Source: Aporhodopirellula rubra (GTDB taxonomy: Bacteria; Planctomycetota; Planctomycetia; Pirellulales; Pirellulaceae). From it: 64,000 nt of DNA. Under the pieces are notes generated by a model, which did not search any database, was not told where the DNA came from, and worked only from the letters and a program-made list of their open reading frames with translations. The translations under genes and the position numbers were made by a program. Of the stretch, positions 10,392 to 20,559 are shown one piece after another (the first letter of the stretch is position 1; the number at the start of each line of letters is the position of its first letter). The stretch is taken from contig NZ_JACHXU010000035.1 of the NCBI RefSeq assembly GCF_014192335.1, positions 1-64,000 on the forward strand. Direction: 5' to 3'.

Positions 10392-13300
10392 ATGTTGTTG
10401 GATCGAATTGAAATCGACAGTCATGGCCCGTTGAGCCGAGTCGAAATAGGCCCCCTTTCGCACCACTTGAACGTGCTCGTCGGTGCTCCAGGTTCCGGCA
10501 AGACTGCGATCTGTCGATTCGTTCGCGACTCACTGATCGATCGTGAATATCCCCGCGGAATGCTGAGCGGATCGGCCGGGCGAGTCGTTTGGGTTGACCA
10601 AAACGGCTGGATTCACTGCCGCCGCGAACAAGACGGCACCCCCGGTGGTCGCCGCAGCGTTGAGTTCGAACCACGCAGCGAAACGGCTGGGATTTGGGAC
10701 GGCTACACCGAAGGTTGGTTCGACGGACCCGCCGCCAACGATCTCCACCGCGACACGGCGTTCCGTGCGGACATTGCATCGCAAACGGCATCCTCGTATC
10801 GATCGTCGCTCGCGTCACGGTCACTTGGCGGGATCCGCATTCCCGAATCCATCGTCGATGGCGTGATGGTCGACACTACCGTCAGCAGCGTCTCGCGAGT
10901 GGTTGCGTCCTGCGTCGCCGCGGGGCTCGATCGCGAAGACCTCGCTCGCCTGCCGTTCGAAAACGAAACCGCCCAATACGCTCAGTACGGATTGGCCGAC
11001 AACGATCATCGTGACCGCGACGATCAACACCGCCGAACACTCCGCAGCGAACTCGCGGACGTCGAAGCCGAACTGGCTAAGCTCAACGCGGTCGCACAAC
11101 GCTATCGCTCCGACGAGCACGTTTCTGCAACCGTCGGTGCTGACATTGAACGGCTCGGCCTCGAGCGAGCCGAATGTGTTCGTCGCCGAGATGATTTGGT
11201 CGCGCGTCGCGAAGCGGCTATTCGCGTTCGCAGTCACTACCACGCTCCGGTCGTTCCTTACACGAGTCCGTTTGGACCGATCGACGCACGTTACGGTGAG
11301 CCCGGTTACAACCCGACCGTTGCCGCCTCTGCCGGGACATGGGACGCCAACGCACCTCGTCTTCGCGTGCTTCATCAACGTGCTGATTCATTGCGGTCGC
11401 GTGCCGCGGAGCTACAGCGCTGGATTGCCGAGCTCGATTCGCAGTCCCACTCACGCTCTGCGTATGACGCGTCGCTGCATGGTGGGCTCGATCTCCATGC
11501 ATCCGATTACACACTCCCACGCCACTGGCAAACGACGTCGTCAGATCACTTGCAGAATCGCATCCGGCAAGCGGACCGCGAAATCGTTTCGCTTCGCCGT
11601 GTGCTCGCTGATGTTCGTGGATTGCGTGACCTGCTCGGTGCGACGATGCGATCGGCAACGCCGCACGTTGATTCGTACGACTGGCTCAACGACAGTTGGA
11701 TGCGTGGACGCCGGTACGATCATTTTGTCCGTGCGATGGATCATTACCGCAGCGACCGGCCTTGGGGCGATTTCTACAATCATGCCTATCAATCGCTGCG
11801 ACCGGTTGATGATCTCGCGATGCGAATCGAAGCCACCACCCGGCATCTCGATTGGTTGCTTTCGCGATTCGATATGCCTGGGGCAACCATCGACTCACGC
11901 ACCGCAGATCCTTACACGTGGATTTACGAAAACGAACGCGGCGGAACCATCGAAGCCTCGCTTCGCCGTGTCCGAGATCAACTTCGCCAACGCGACTACT
12001 TGAGTGCCTCTCACCTCGACTCGACGATCGTTGAACTGACACGGTCGCTCGACCACCTGATGGTCCACCGTCGGCGTGTCGTCGATTCGCTCGCCTCGCA
12101 ACACGGCAATTGGAAGCGTGACTTCGCCGGTCTTTCCGGTCATCAACTCGATTGGGTCAGCGAACGCCGCGCCGCGAACGAAGAGCTCGCCAGCATCGAA
12201 AACGAACTGCGTCGTGTCCTTGATCAAACCGCGACCCTGCGTCACTCGCAGCGATATCTTCCGATCGTTGATCCGATTTACCCGATCGGTATGGGATCCG
12301 TCCCAGGTGCTTACGCAACTCCAGGGCTTTACACGGGCATTGACCAAGGCCAGTCGGAGTCGCTGCGTGCCGAAGTCCGATCAATGGACGCAGAGATTTC
12401 GCGTTGCAATCAACGGCTCAGCGAAATCGACGTTCAGATTCGGTCGCTGCGTTCGCGTCCCGTCGCTGTTGCCGTGCCGAACGACGAGATCGCTCGTTTG
12501 CGTCAACGCCGCGAAGAAATTATCGCTGAACTTAACCGCTATCGTCCCGTCACTCGGCGTGAGTCGTCTCTCGCGGAACTCGCCAGTCGCTGGTTGATTC
12601 GTCTTTCGGGCGGTCAGCATCGTGTGATCCGGTGGACCGTATCCGCAACCGCGACCGACCCTTACACCACGCTCGACGCGACCACCGGTGAAGCAGCACG
12701 CTATCGTGACGCTGCGGTAAGCGGACGTGCCGAAGGTCGACGCGTGAACGTTTCGATCGATAACATTGACGAACGCAATGTGACCGCAGCCACTCGTGCG
12801 GTTGCTTGTTTGGCGACTCGCATGGCCGCCGGCGAATTGCTCGGCCGTATGGGCCACGCGATTCCGCTCGTGCTCGAAACGCATCGCGAAATCTTTGCCG
12901 CACGCGATCCGCAATCGTATTCCGCGGACGGGTGTCATCACGCCGCTCACCCGGAAGCCTATCAGCACTGGACTCGCGAAGGCATTAGCGGCGACACGAT
13001 TGCTTCGGCATTCGCAGATTACGCTGCCGCAGGTCGTCAGCTGTTGGTGCTGACCGAACACGCTCCCCTCGCCGACGTGCTGCGTCGATCTGGGGCTCGG
13101 CACTTTGCCCTGCACACGCAACGGATCGTGCACCCGCATCGTCCGCTTTGGCGCGATGGCGAACGCCACGATCGTTATACCGGCCCTCACGCGATCAACG
13201 TTGACGGCATGCCCGCTCAAGGTGGATCGAATGAAATGGATTGGACCGACGCCGGTTCGGTCAACCGAGCGTTCGATCGAGCATGGCGTGACAGCGCCGG

Positions 13301-15071
13301 CCTTCGCGACGAAGCGTCGTACTGTGCGGCCGCGACCGACACGCCCGCAGCCGGTGCCGCCTATCGCGACGGCTATTACTACTCCGACCAAAGCTCAACG
13401 TATCCGGTCGCTTCGGAGACCACCGAAGTCCGGCATGCGGCCGCGGGCCAGCTGGTTTCGCAGAGTTTGACTGCACGACATAACGCACCGGGCGAAACGG
13501 ACACTCCCGAAGTTCCGTTCTTCCTGACCGTCGACAGCCCCATCGATGCCGCACCCTCGATCGATGCCGTCGCTGCACAACGGCTTCGCCGAATCGGGAT
13601 TTCGCACATCACTCACTTGATGAATCAAGACAGCAATCGCCTCGCCGACACCCTCGGCCTTGCGGGAGTGGATGCCAAGACGGTTCGTCGCTGGCAATCG
13701 GAATGTCGATTGATGTGCCGCGTGCCGCAGTTGCGTGGTTTCGATGCTCGCGTCCTGGTGGGTTGCGGTATCACGGATCCAGCTCAATTGGCCGCGATTC
13801 ATCCGACCGATCTGCTCGATCGCGTGAAGACTTTCTTGGCTACCGAGCGTGGGCAACGCATCTTGTTGTCCGGCACAAGTTACGAGTTGTCTCGCATCAC
13901 CAGTTGGATCGCGTCGGCGAACCAAAGCGTCCATACCTACACCCGTTCGCGTACCGTTGACGGTCGCCGAGTCCGCACTCGCGTGATCCGCGAAGACGGT
14001 GATGCAACCTACGAATCCACATCACGCTCGAAATCGACGCCTCGAACGCGTTACGTCGAAAACAACGACGTGTACCTGACCGACGATGATTTCGATCAAG
14101 AGCGATATGAAGTCGAAGTCGAACGTCGCGCTGATCGCATTGTGAGCGACCTCGACGAACTCGCCCGTGACTACGACAGCAGCTACGATGGCGGCTCGCA
14201 ATCGAATCGCTCAAGTGGTGCTGCCGGAACGTCGTCCTCACGTTCGTACCGATCCTCAAGGTCGTCGCGGAACGGAGGAGAGCGATCCTCACGGTCATCG
14301 AACAGTTCCCGCTCGAGTTCGTCATCGGATCGCGACCGCGTTCGCAGTGAGCGAGAGTCCCGTCGCCGTAGCGAATCCAATCGTGAGCGTTCCGATCGTG
14401 ACCGAACACGGTCGAGTCGCAGCGAACGAGAAAGCCGTAGCACCGTTCGCAGCGAAGGCGGTGACCGTGACTCAAACCGATCCGGCATCCGCAGTTCCGC
14501 GTCGGAGAGTAATCGGACCAACCGAGAGTCGAGTCGCAGTTCTTCATACGACCGTGATAGTCGCGAACGAAGCGGTCGCGGCGAAAGCTACAGCAGTCGG
14601 TCGAGCGAATCGACGGAAACTGGCGAACGCGTACTCAAGTTCTATCTCGAACGAGCCAGCGACGTGGTCGACGCACCATCGATCGGTCCACGCATGGCTG
14701 AACGGTTAAACAAGATCGGTATCTACACCGTGGACGATCTGTTGCAGGCCGATGCTGAAGAAATTGCAGAAGGACTTAGTCACCGCCGAATCGATGCCGC
14801 GACTGTCCTGGAGTGGCAACAACAGGCGACTTTGGTATGTCGCGTGCCGATGATGCGAGGGCACGACGCACAGTTTCTCGTCGCTGCGGGCGTCACCACA
14901 CCGGAAGAACTCGCCAGCAGCGAGCCCGTCTCGCTGTTCGCGACCGTTGAAACAATCGCCCACTCCAACGAAGGCAAGCGTATCGTTCGCGGAGGCAAAT
15001 TGCCTGACCTCGAAGAAGTCACCGAGTGGATCGAATATGCCTCAGAGCATCGACCGCTCAAGGCCGCCTAA
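10392..15071 (+). CDS. Giant SMC/ABC-like ATPase with two DUF4332-like (HhH) domains and an Arg/Ser-rich linker
   Basis: 1559 residues from the ATG at 10392; the in-frame ATG at 10347 only adds a basic tail. N-terminus: Walker A GAPGSGKT (31-38) just after a short strand, as in SMC/RecN/Rad50 ATPases. Residues about 200-720 are Arg/Glu/Leu-rich with heptad-like stretches, the expected coiled-coil arms. An ABC signature LSGGQ follows at 738-742, a degenerate Walker B candidate IPLVLETH at 824-831, and an H-loop-like LLVLTEH at 884-890. The C-terminus has two homologous domains, about 1044-1180 and 1416-1559, each with an SIDAVAAQRLRRIGI / SIGPRMAERLNKIGI helix-hairpin-helix and a CRVPxxRGxDAxxLVxxG core, matching the DUF4332 type. 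Between them, residues about 1262-1414 are almost entirely Arg, Ser, Asp, Glu and Asn. Predicted role: DNA- or nucleoid-associated ATPase; substrate unknown. Confidence 0.8.
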   Translation: MLLDRIEIDSHGPLSRVEIGPLSHHLNVLVGAPGSGKTAICRFVRDSLIDREYPRGMLSGSAGRVVWVDQNGWIHCRREQDGTPGGRRSVEFEPRSETAGIWDGYTEGWFDGPAANDLHRDTAFRADIASQTASSYRSSLASRSLGGIRIPESIVDGVMVDTTVSSVSRVVASCVAAGLDREDLARLPFENETAQYAQYGLADNDHRDRDDQHRRTLRSELADVEAELAKLNAVAQRYRSDEHVSATVGADIERLGLERAECVRRRDDLVARREAAIRVRSHYHAPVVPYTSPFGPIDARYGEPGYNPTVAASAGTWDANAPRLRVLHQRADSLRSRAAELQRWIAELDSQSHSRSAYDASLHGGLDLHASDYTLPRHWQTTSSDHLQNRIRQADREIVSLRRVLADVRGLRDLLGATMRSATPHVDSYDWLNDSWMRGRRYDHFVRAMDHYRSDRPWGDFYNHAYQSLRPVDDLAMRIEATTRHLDWLLSRFDMPGATIDSRTADPYTWIYENERGGTIEASLRRVRDQLRQRDYLSASHLDSTIVELTRSLDHLMVHRRRVVDSLASQHGNWKRDFAGLSGHQLDWVSERRAANEELASIENELRRVLDQTATLRHSQRYLPIVDPIYPIGMGSVPGAYATPGLYTGIDQGQSESLRAEVRSMDAEISRCNQRLSEIDVQIRSLRSRPVAVAVPNDEIARLRQRREEIIAELNRYRPVTRRESSLAELASRWLIRLSGGQHRVIRWTVSATATDPYTTLDATTGEAARYRDAAVSGRAEGRRVNVSIDNIDERNVTAATRAVACLATRMAAGELLGRMGHAIPLVLETHREIFAARDPQSYSADGCHHAAHPEAYQHWTREGISGDTIASAFADYAAAGRQLLVLTEHAPLADVLRRSGARHFALHTQRIVHPHRPLWRDGERHDRYTGPHAINVDGMPAQGGSNEMDWTDAGSVNRAFDRAWRDSAGLRDEASYCAAATDTPAAGAAYRDGYYYSDQSSTYPVASETTEVRHAAAGQLVSQSLTARHNAPGETDTPEVPFFLTVDSPIDAAPSIDAVAAQRLRRIGISHITHLMNQDSNRLADTLGLAGVDAKTVRRWQSECRLMCRVPQLRGFDARVLVGCGITDPAQLAAIHPTDLLDRVKTFLATERGQRILLSGTSYELSRITSWIASANQSVHTYTRSRTVDGRRVRTRVIREDGDATYESTSRSKSTPRTRYVENNDVYLTDDDFDQERYEVEVERRADRIVSDLDELARDYDSSYDGGSQSNRSSGAAGTSSSRSYRSSRSSRNGGERSSRSSNSSRSSSSSDRDRVRSERESRRRSESNRERSDRDRTRSSRSERESRSTVRSEGGDRDSNRSGIRSSASESNRTNRESSRSSSYDRDSRERSGRGESYSSRSSESTETGERVLKFYLERASDVVDAPSIGPRMAERLNKIGIYTVDDLLQADAEEIAEGLSHRRIDAATVLEWQQQATLVCRVPMMRGHDAQFLVAAGVTTPEELASSEPVSLFATVETIAHSNEGKRIVRGGKLPDLEEVTEWIEYASEHRPLKAA

Positions 15072-19884: not shown

Positions 19885-20559
19885 TTAGATGTCCGTTGCG
19901 GCATCTGGCGTTGGAGCTGGAGGAGCTGGCGGAGCAGCTTCTTCGTCGCTGCTGCTAGGGACGGCGTCGCCAGCGGCAGGAGCGTCGGCGGCTTCGTCAG
20001 CAGCGGGAGCTGGAGGAGCTTCGGCGGCAGGTTCCTCTGCAGCGGCTTCTTCAGCAACAGGAGCAGCGGCGGCTTCGCCGGTCGTGACGCTGCCAGGAAC
20101 GAGTGTTTCGCCTGGAGCGAGGTCGAAACCTTCGCTGCTGACGGAGACACCCATTTCGACTGGAGCCGATTCGACTACTACCGAGGCGTCGCCACCGCAG
20201 CAAGGTGCTGCTTCAACGACAGGAGCGGCTTCGCAGCAAGGTGCTGGTGCTGGCTCGCAGCACGGCTCAGGAGCTGGTACGCAACATGGTTCCGGAGCTG
20301 GCTCGCAGCAAGGTGCTGGTTCGCAGCATGGTTCTGGAGCTGGTTCGCAGCAGCAAACTGGCTCGCAGCAATCGTCTGCCTTCACTGCACGCAGCTTGGC
20401 GAACAATCCGCCACCGCCACAACGAGTTGGCTCGCAGCAGTTGTTCTTTGCGAAAAGTTTCTTGAACAAACCACCAGCTTGTACCGGTGCGCTCAACGTC
20501 AAAGAGGCGGCCATGACCAAAGCAAGGGCGGCCGTTCCTTTCACCAAATTCCGAGTCAT
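19885..20559 (-). CDS. Secreted Cys-Cys-Glu-Pro repeat protein
   Basis: 224 residues. Residues 1-28 are a Sec signal peptide with cleavage after VQA. Then GGLFKKLFAKNNCCEP and a similar GGLFAKL unit, followed by about ten copies of a short repeat of the type CCEPAPE/CCEPAP between about residues 62 and 112, with more than twenty Cys in total, mostly as CC pairs. The C-terminal 110 residues are Ala/Pro/Glu-rich and probably disordered. The paired Cys suggest metal binding or disulfide cross-linking in the envelope; neither is shown. The opposite strand has an open frame of equal length, but only this strand has a signal peptide and terminator. Confidence 0.8.
   Translation of the reverse strand: MTRNLVKGTAALALVMAASLTLSAPVQAGGLFKKLFAKNNCCEPTRCGGGGLFAKLRAVKADDCCEPVCCCEPAPEPCCEPAPCCEPAPEPCCVPAPEPCCEPAPAPCCEAAPVVEAAPCCGGDASVVVESAPVEMGVSVSSEGFDLAPGETLVPGSVTTGEAAAAPVAEEAAAEEPAAEAPPAPAADEAADAPAAGDAVPSSSDEEAAPPAPPAPTPDAATDI

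Follow-up and report, generated by a model that had tools for sequence, protein, structure and literature searches.

The gene at 10392..15071 (+) of the window, by which is meant the whole 64,000-nucleotide stretch of Aporhodopirellula rubra DNA that was analysed, encodes a protein that is SMC-like in kind and for which the nearest family found is YhaN. The best explanation for this protein, held with moderate confidence, is that it represents a YhaN (SbcE) paralogue that has gained twin DUF4332 domains and that probably serves as an ATP-binding, non-cycling scaffold. SMC/Rad50-like proteins are usually regarded as ATP-driven machines, and SbcE is reportedly an SMC-like double-strand-break repair protein in Bacillus subtilis. 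The individual parts of the protein are known, while a protein derived from YhaN that occurs lineage-wide and combines degenerate catalytic motifs with a DUF4332 pair was not found in the open-access literature: by title and abstract, nothing on such a family appears under YhaN/YhaO, SbcE/SbcF, planctomycete Rad50/Mre11, the combination of helix-hairpin-helix (HhH), planctomycete and SMC, or pseudo-ATPase.

The gene is read from an ATG and comprises 1559 codons plus a stop, the parts of which are set out in the table. It had been described as encoded alone, and so it is: rseP lies about 450 bp upstream on the same strand, within a dxr-rseP order, and the downstream neighbour is a convergent gene, TPR-like judging by its letters. 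Clustering of the neighbours at 44 loci found, besides the protein itself, no family common to more than six of them, the largest groups being four frames in six loci of the genus and a YhaO-like gene in six loci of f4, a second family of the same class. The gene is conserved, each of the 13 genus genomes (its own included) having a match, and the five relatives that carry species names all come from genera near Rhodopirellula, one of them assigned by taxonomy lookup to the Pirellulaceae, Planctomycetia. Two further frames were recorded in passing. One, of up to about 420 residues, lies near the gene at L064:10550-11809 (+) and has matches in L066, L070, L071 and L072, that is, in five Pirellulaceae loci from three genera other than that of the window, and may not be a gene; the other, at 19885-20559 (-) of the window, spans 224 residues, begins in a signal-like manner and contains Cys/Pro/Glu repeats of the CCEPAP type.

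Table 1. Features of the YhaN-like, twin-DUF4332 protein and their positions in the window.
Feature	Residues	Position (strand)	Remarks
N-terminal head half	1-190	10392..10961 (+)	YhaN alignment, AlphaFold model
Walker A, GAPGSGKT	31-38	10482..10505 (+)	intact in 13/13 genus members
Coiled-coil-like arms	205-716	11004..12539 (+)	interrupted helices, longest 53 residues (AlphaFold model)
C-terminal head half	725-915	12564..13136 (+)	own-genome profile search, YhaN alignment, AlphaFold model
LSGGQ	738-742	12603..12617 (+)	opposite YhaN LTDGK; not the ABC signature
True signature position, NVTAATRAV	796-804	12777..12803 (+)	degenerate; YhaN has VLSRGTGEA
Degenerate Walker B, IPLVLETHRE	824-833	12861..12890 (+)	YhaN has LPLVLDD; Asp to Glu, next acid to Thr
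H-switch, LLVLTEHA	884-891	13041..13064 (+)	YhaN has VMMFTCHD
DUF4332 domain 1	1041-1184	13512..13943 (+)	pI about 9.1
Linker between DUF4332 domains	1185-1414	13944..14633 (+)	Arg/Ser-rich, nearly Lys-free, net charge +7
DUF4332 domain 2	1415-1559	14634..15068 (+)	pI 4.9, tandem HhH, 24/145 columns invariant (33 sequences)

By sequence comparison the head is homologous to YhaN. A family profile covering the head and domain 1, built from 33 sequences, was searched against the organism's own genome, where the best match, after the protein itself and the DUF4332 matches, was YhaN (E 1.4e-17 for the C-terminal and 1.1e-10 for the N-terminal head half); below it came a match at 0.195 that looks like chance, its frame containing stops, and the genome's SMC-like protein reached only E 0.68. 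The YhaN in question has 1369 residues, lies directly after a YhaO-like gene and matches AAA_27 at E 4.9e-12. Among the 33 members, Pfam at E 0.01 or better matches AAA_23 in 17, SMC_N in four and AAA_27 in two, the window's protein not being one of them; in the latter Pfam gives no above-cut-off match outside the DUF4332 region, and a PDB sequence search with the whole protein as query returned nothing at E 1.

The fold points in the same general direction. The AlphaFold model of the protein (mean pLDDT 66, pTM 0.41, with the head and domain 1 good, the loops poor, the arms of uneven confidence and no hinge resolved at the arm tip) predicts a split ABC-type head with helical arms, and in a Foldseek search with it the Mre11-Rad50-Nbs1 complex supplies the top chains (E 2.2e-11), followed by chains of Smc5/6, MukBEF, Lamassu and JetABC. 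Across the 19 matches that reach E 0.001 the TM-score by query length is 0.13-0.18, a poor global superposition which, together with the weakness of the model, means that Foldseek backs the fold class and not a detailed match. The SMC/Rad50-like architecture of the original prediction, with N- and C-terminal head halves, coiled-coil-like arms, twin HhH-type domains and an RS linker, is thus upheld, and the structure prediction returned the ABC-type head plus coiled-coil-like arms that had been anticipated.

The Lamassu chains among these matches raise the question of whether the protein might be the ATPase of a defence system, resembling LmuB of Lamassu, and two relatives (L128 and L082) do match LmuB models at E 7.3e-14 and 1.2e-15. 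The YhaN of the same genome, however, matches the same LmuB model equally well (E 2.6e-16), and the window's protein has weak GajA matches only (E 0.0045 and 0.0064) and no LmuB match at E 0.01. Defence genes are usually patchy in their distribution, which this gene, matched in all 13 genus genomes, is not. A Lamassu origin was rejected on the YhaN control, which scores as well on LmuB as the two relatives do, and a defence role is the least probable of the readings considered here.

Placed beside known systems, the protein shares with YhaN/SbcE (whose partner is YhaO) the head sequence, the order of the motifs and the split head with arms, and its relatives in f4 also share with the YhaO-YhaN pair a YhaO-like neighbour. 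It differs from YhaN/SbcE in its degenerate signature and Walker B, in the added twin DUF4332 domains and RS linker, and in having no YhaO-like gene next to it, that position being held in the same genome by the separate, intact YhaN. Rad50/SbcC is close to it in that chains of the Mre11-Rad50-Nbs1 complex are the top structural matches, whereas the window's protein has no CxxC motif (the zinc hook), no adjacent nuclease gene and degenerate catalytic motifs. The split ABC head and coiled coil recall SMC, MukB and RecN, from which the low profile score of the genome's own SMC-like protein sets it apart. With the DUF4332 proteins of PF14229 it has two clear copies of the domain in common, which in this case form a pair terminating an SMC-like protein. 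Finally, the archaea-specific SMC-related proteins, including coalescin, are likewise SMC-related and lineage-specific; according to the passages of PMC9389158 consulted, Walker A and B are present in them and a zinc hook in most, and DUF4332 is not mentioned for them in those passages.

What is it, then, that probably separates this protein from a motor? The original prediction had assembled an ATPase from an N-terminal Walker A, LSGGQ as the ABC signature and LLVLTEH as an H-loop. The first is present and the last lies at the H-switch position. The letters LSGGQ are also there, but in the alignment with YhaN they stand about 59 residues ahead of the true signature site, at which YhaN LSRGT corresponds to VTAAT, with the Ser and Gly lost. 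In the AlphaFold model LSGGQ falls in a turn between a helix (726-739) and a strand (746-755) and not at the start of a helix, the signature helix being predicted at 799-819, the Walker B strand at 826-829 and the H-switch strand at 884-888. The five letters are a coincidence of spelling, found in only 1 of 43 family members, and the commonest Pirellulaceae spelling at the site is RLSGGR. For a working SMC/Rad50-type ATPase with residues 738-742 as its signature, the Walker A, the H-switch His and the literal LSGGQ letters could be cited, yet the misplacement of those letters, their rarity and a Walker B with Glu in place of Asp and Thr in place of the next acid make it very improbable.

The state of the motifs varies with lineage. 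In f4 the Walker A, signature and Walker B are all intact in 10 of 10 testable members. In the Pirellulaceae 71 rows were scored, a non-random set of 13 from the genus, 20 picked for diversity and 38 picked from the survey with domain 2, in which unalignable heads were counted as motif lost and motif placement is insecure for the most diverged rows (heads aligned at E as high as 0.5 or not at all): intact Walker A, signature and Walker B number 13, 0 and 0 among the 13 genus members and 35, 7 and 14 among the 58 others, and the three occur together in none of the 71. Left out of these counts were L133-L141, which have one DUF4332 domain and no detected head, and L132, in which the frame is cut by the contig end; L191 and L192 are short stretches and were not used, and L168, L177 and L190 had no head detected with the first profiles. 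The H-switch His is carried by 2 of 10 f4 members, 12 of 13 genus members and 10 of 58 other Pirellulaceae rows, and is not diagnostic since so few of the f4 members have it. In L083, L167 and L188 the P-loop is destroyed (GQETAHRA, GQERPHRA and GLAEADRA, respectively) and the DUF4332 domains are still there.

Constraint on the protein is unevenly spread. Seven sequence pairs were compared, with values that differ between pairs; against the two nearest relatives, for which dS of 0.8-2.1 is near saturation and makes the ratios rough, dN/dS is 0.03-0.04 for residues 1-95, 0.01-0.03 for domain 1, 0.05-0.07 for domain 2, 0.12-0.14 for the C-terminal head half, 0.13-0.14 for the arms and 0.21-0.23 for the linker, and the pair L006-L029 gives 0.09 for residues 1-95 and 0.33 for the linker. 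Of the columns invariant across 33 sequences, a count inflated by close relatives in the sample, 36 of 46 fall within the two DUF4332 domains, that is, within 289 of 1559 residues. Strong purifying selection acts on the P-loop half, which is intact, and within the protein constraint is greatest on the DUF4332 domains.

These patterns bear on a second possibility, that of an active but non-canonical ATPase in which Glu829 would replace the Walker B Asp and other residues would stand in for the signature and the catalytic acid. The purifying selection on the C-terminal head half in the two nearest comparisons favours it, as does PLxxET, which is conserved in 13 of 13 genus members and also counts against the preferred explanation, lost motifs being no proof of lost hydrolysis. 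Beyond the genus, however, the sites drift, as the counts for the 58 other Pirellulaceae rows attest, and this possibility is considered distinctly unlikely. The degenerate signature site and Walker B suggest that the protein probably no longer hydrolyses ATP, so that from the earlier description of an SMC-like ATPase the first term stands and the second probably does not; the protein is probably a scaffold and not a motor.

DUF4332 (PF14229) is matched by Pfam in two stretches at E 1.5e-44 (151.6 bits against a curated cut-off of 23.2), accompanied by HHH_5 and Cdd1 helix-hairpin-helix matches, a profile search that confirms the twin C-terminal HhH-type domains that had been proposed. Domain 2 modelled alone has nine predicted helices (pLDDT 95.7), and its Foldseek matches are weak (best E 0.073), including a chain of a transcription-translation complex that is probably NusA, RadA/Rad51-type proteins and Y-family polymerases; these predicted likenesses are consistent with a tandem HhH. 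In the parts of the open-access literature consulted, DUF4332 appears in nothing beyond a figure-legend mention, and PF14229 not at all. A 271-residue frame of the same genome (L089, at C7:148683) carries a further, diverged DUF4332 domain.

Between the two domains the 230 residues of the linker are 49% Arg plus Ser and 20% Asp plus Glu, with a single Lys. The original prediction of about 150 residues of almost pure Arg, Ser, Asp, Glu and Asn is right as to richness and overstated as to purity, the 150-residue core containing 34% Ser, 23.3% Arg, 8.7% Asp, 8.7% Glu and 4.7% Asn, or some 79% in all. Its length varies by group, from 24-92 residues in nine members of f4 and 0-187 in more distant Pirellulaceae (L073-L083) to 180-271 in nearer Pirellulaceae (L064-L072) and 155-272 in the genus, which marks great length as an elaboration and not as part of the core.

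The combination of domains, which had been put forward as one unknown in any described SMC family, is indeed unusual; it is not isolated, as it recurs across the sampled Pirellulaceae and in f4. All genome-search tallies are lower bounds because a limited number of first-look candidates was scored per genome: a single-sequence head query matched at least 45 and a domain-2 profile at least 115 of 149 Pirellulaceae genomes. A domain-2 frame of at least 790 residues occurs in at least 99 of these 149, such frames not all having been checked for a head (that of G103 has an internal stop and that of L190 no detected head). Among the matches listed, 112 Pirellulaceae genomes are represented, 99 with a frame of at least 790 residues, 44 with a frame of 480-760 residues and 31 with both. 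Phylum-wide, the domain-2 profile matched at least 34 of the 392 genomes sampled: 33 belong to the same class, and the other has a weak match in a 146-residue frame. DUF4332 itself was matched in 5 of 14 control genomes.

A second type of protein, of about 500-750 residues, also ends in a DUF4332 domain of the domain-2 type, and in the tree these domains are intermixed with domain 2. Of nine such frames that were fetched, the six that were read look alike; in the two that were scanned, the N-terminus matches Zn-dependent phospholipase C (PF00882) below the cut-off. Such phospholipase-C-like DUF4332 proteins were seen at L090:1411-3015 (own genome, C3) and at L133-L141, in several families of the class.

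DNA binding is common among HhH motifs, and for the DUF4332 domains, of which the first is basic and the second acidic in the window's protein, it is plausible. The charge of domain 2 does not support it as a clear DNA binder, its pI being acidic in the window's protein and ranging from 4.3 to 11.0 across Pirellulaceae rows, and the acidic pI speaks against domain 2 as the DNA-binding end in the preferred explanation. The same acidity favours an alternative in which the DUF4332 pair would be a protein-docking adaptor, not a DNA binder, and the protein a hub recruiting a partner that the Zn-dependent-phospholipase-C-like proteins also use. Two further points lend it weight, namely that domain-2-type domains end an unrelated, second type of protein and are intermixed with domain 2 in the tree, and that there are weak matches of NusA type, NusA AR2 being a protein-binding domain (6ib8, SuhB-NusA AR2, is among the Foldseek matches). 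The wide spread of pI, on the other hand, and the DNA-binding habit of many HhH motifs count against it, and a purely protein-docking role is judged rather unlikely.

The origin of the protein is approached through f4. At 8 of 11 f4 loci (L122, L123, L124, L125, L126, L129, L130 and L131) the gene immediately upstream of that for the twin-DUF4332 protein is YhaO-like, an arrangement that matches YhaO-YhaN; of the three loci without one, one is cut by the contig end. A motif search for YhaO missed these degenerate neighbours, which were recovered by clustering (six) and by profile (eight). None of the eight has an intact DxH or GD metal-binding motif, and two retain the Asp of DxH, and they look like pseudo-nucleases next to YhaN-like ATPases whose motifs are intact. 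The Pirellulaceae yielded no YhaO-like frame, either at 33 loci (E 1) or at 38 loci (E 0.001), with upstream sequence of at least 1500 bp present at 63 of 70 fetched loci. When the organism's own YhaN was used as query against 16 chosen genomes, 14 had a YhaN match outside the twin-DUF4332 locus, and in G536 and G380, of one f4 genus, the twin-DUF4332 protein was the only YhaN match. The YhaO-like gene of the organism itself (L142:1725-3065) was named from its letters, Metallophos matching at E 0.0018, below the cut-off; it keeps DxH and GD, and GNHD is seemingly missing, the sequence reading GIADD.

Gene order and the motif pattern fit a history in which a duplication and the gain of domains were followed by the loss of nuclease function and, later, of ATPase function. 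In such a history YhaN, which in the bacterial YhaO-YhaN pair is the Rad50-like subunit, would have been duplicated and the paralogue would have gained two DUF4332 (tandem helix-hairpin-helix) domains. The nuclease partner would have been lost first and the ATPase second, an order that depends on gene order in f4 and one tree, rooted by choice on two f4 sequences. In the resulting protein, which would not cycle, ATP may still be a structural ligand, the coiled-coil arms may act as a scaffold, and the HhH modules, spaced by the basic, disordered tether, may hold DNA and/or a conserved protein partner. A bolder version, offered tentatively and with confidence somewhat short of even, is that a Mre11-Rad50-type (YhaO-YhaN) complex, duplicated in the Planctomycetia and fused to twin DUF4332 modules, was stripped of its nuclease (in f4) and then of its ATPase (in the Pirellulaceae), to give a lineage-wide, non-catalytic nucleoid or repair scaffold with a tandem HhH working end, possibly with a partner in common with the phospholipase-C-like DUF4332 proteins.

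Planctomycetes are known for their unusual nucleoids. If the scaffold explanation is right, the Pirellulaceae family would have kept the scaffold and lost the motor, and f4 would pair a motor that is still intact with a nuclease that looks dead. The unstudied DUF4332 domain gains from this a defined setting, and the two families together would provide a natural experiment on how SMC/Rad50-like proteins use their arms and DNA-handling ends when there is no ATP cycling.
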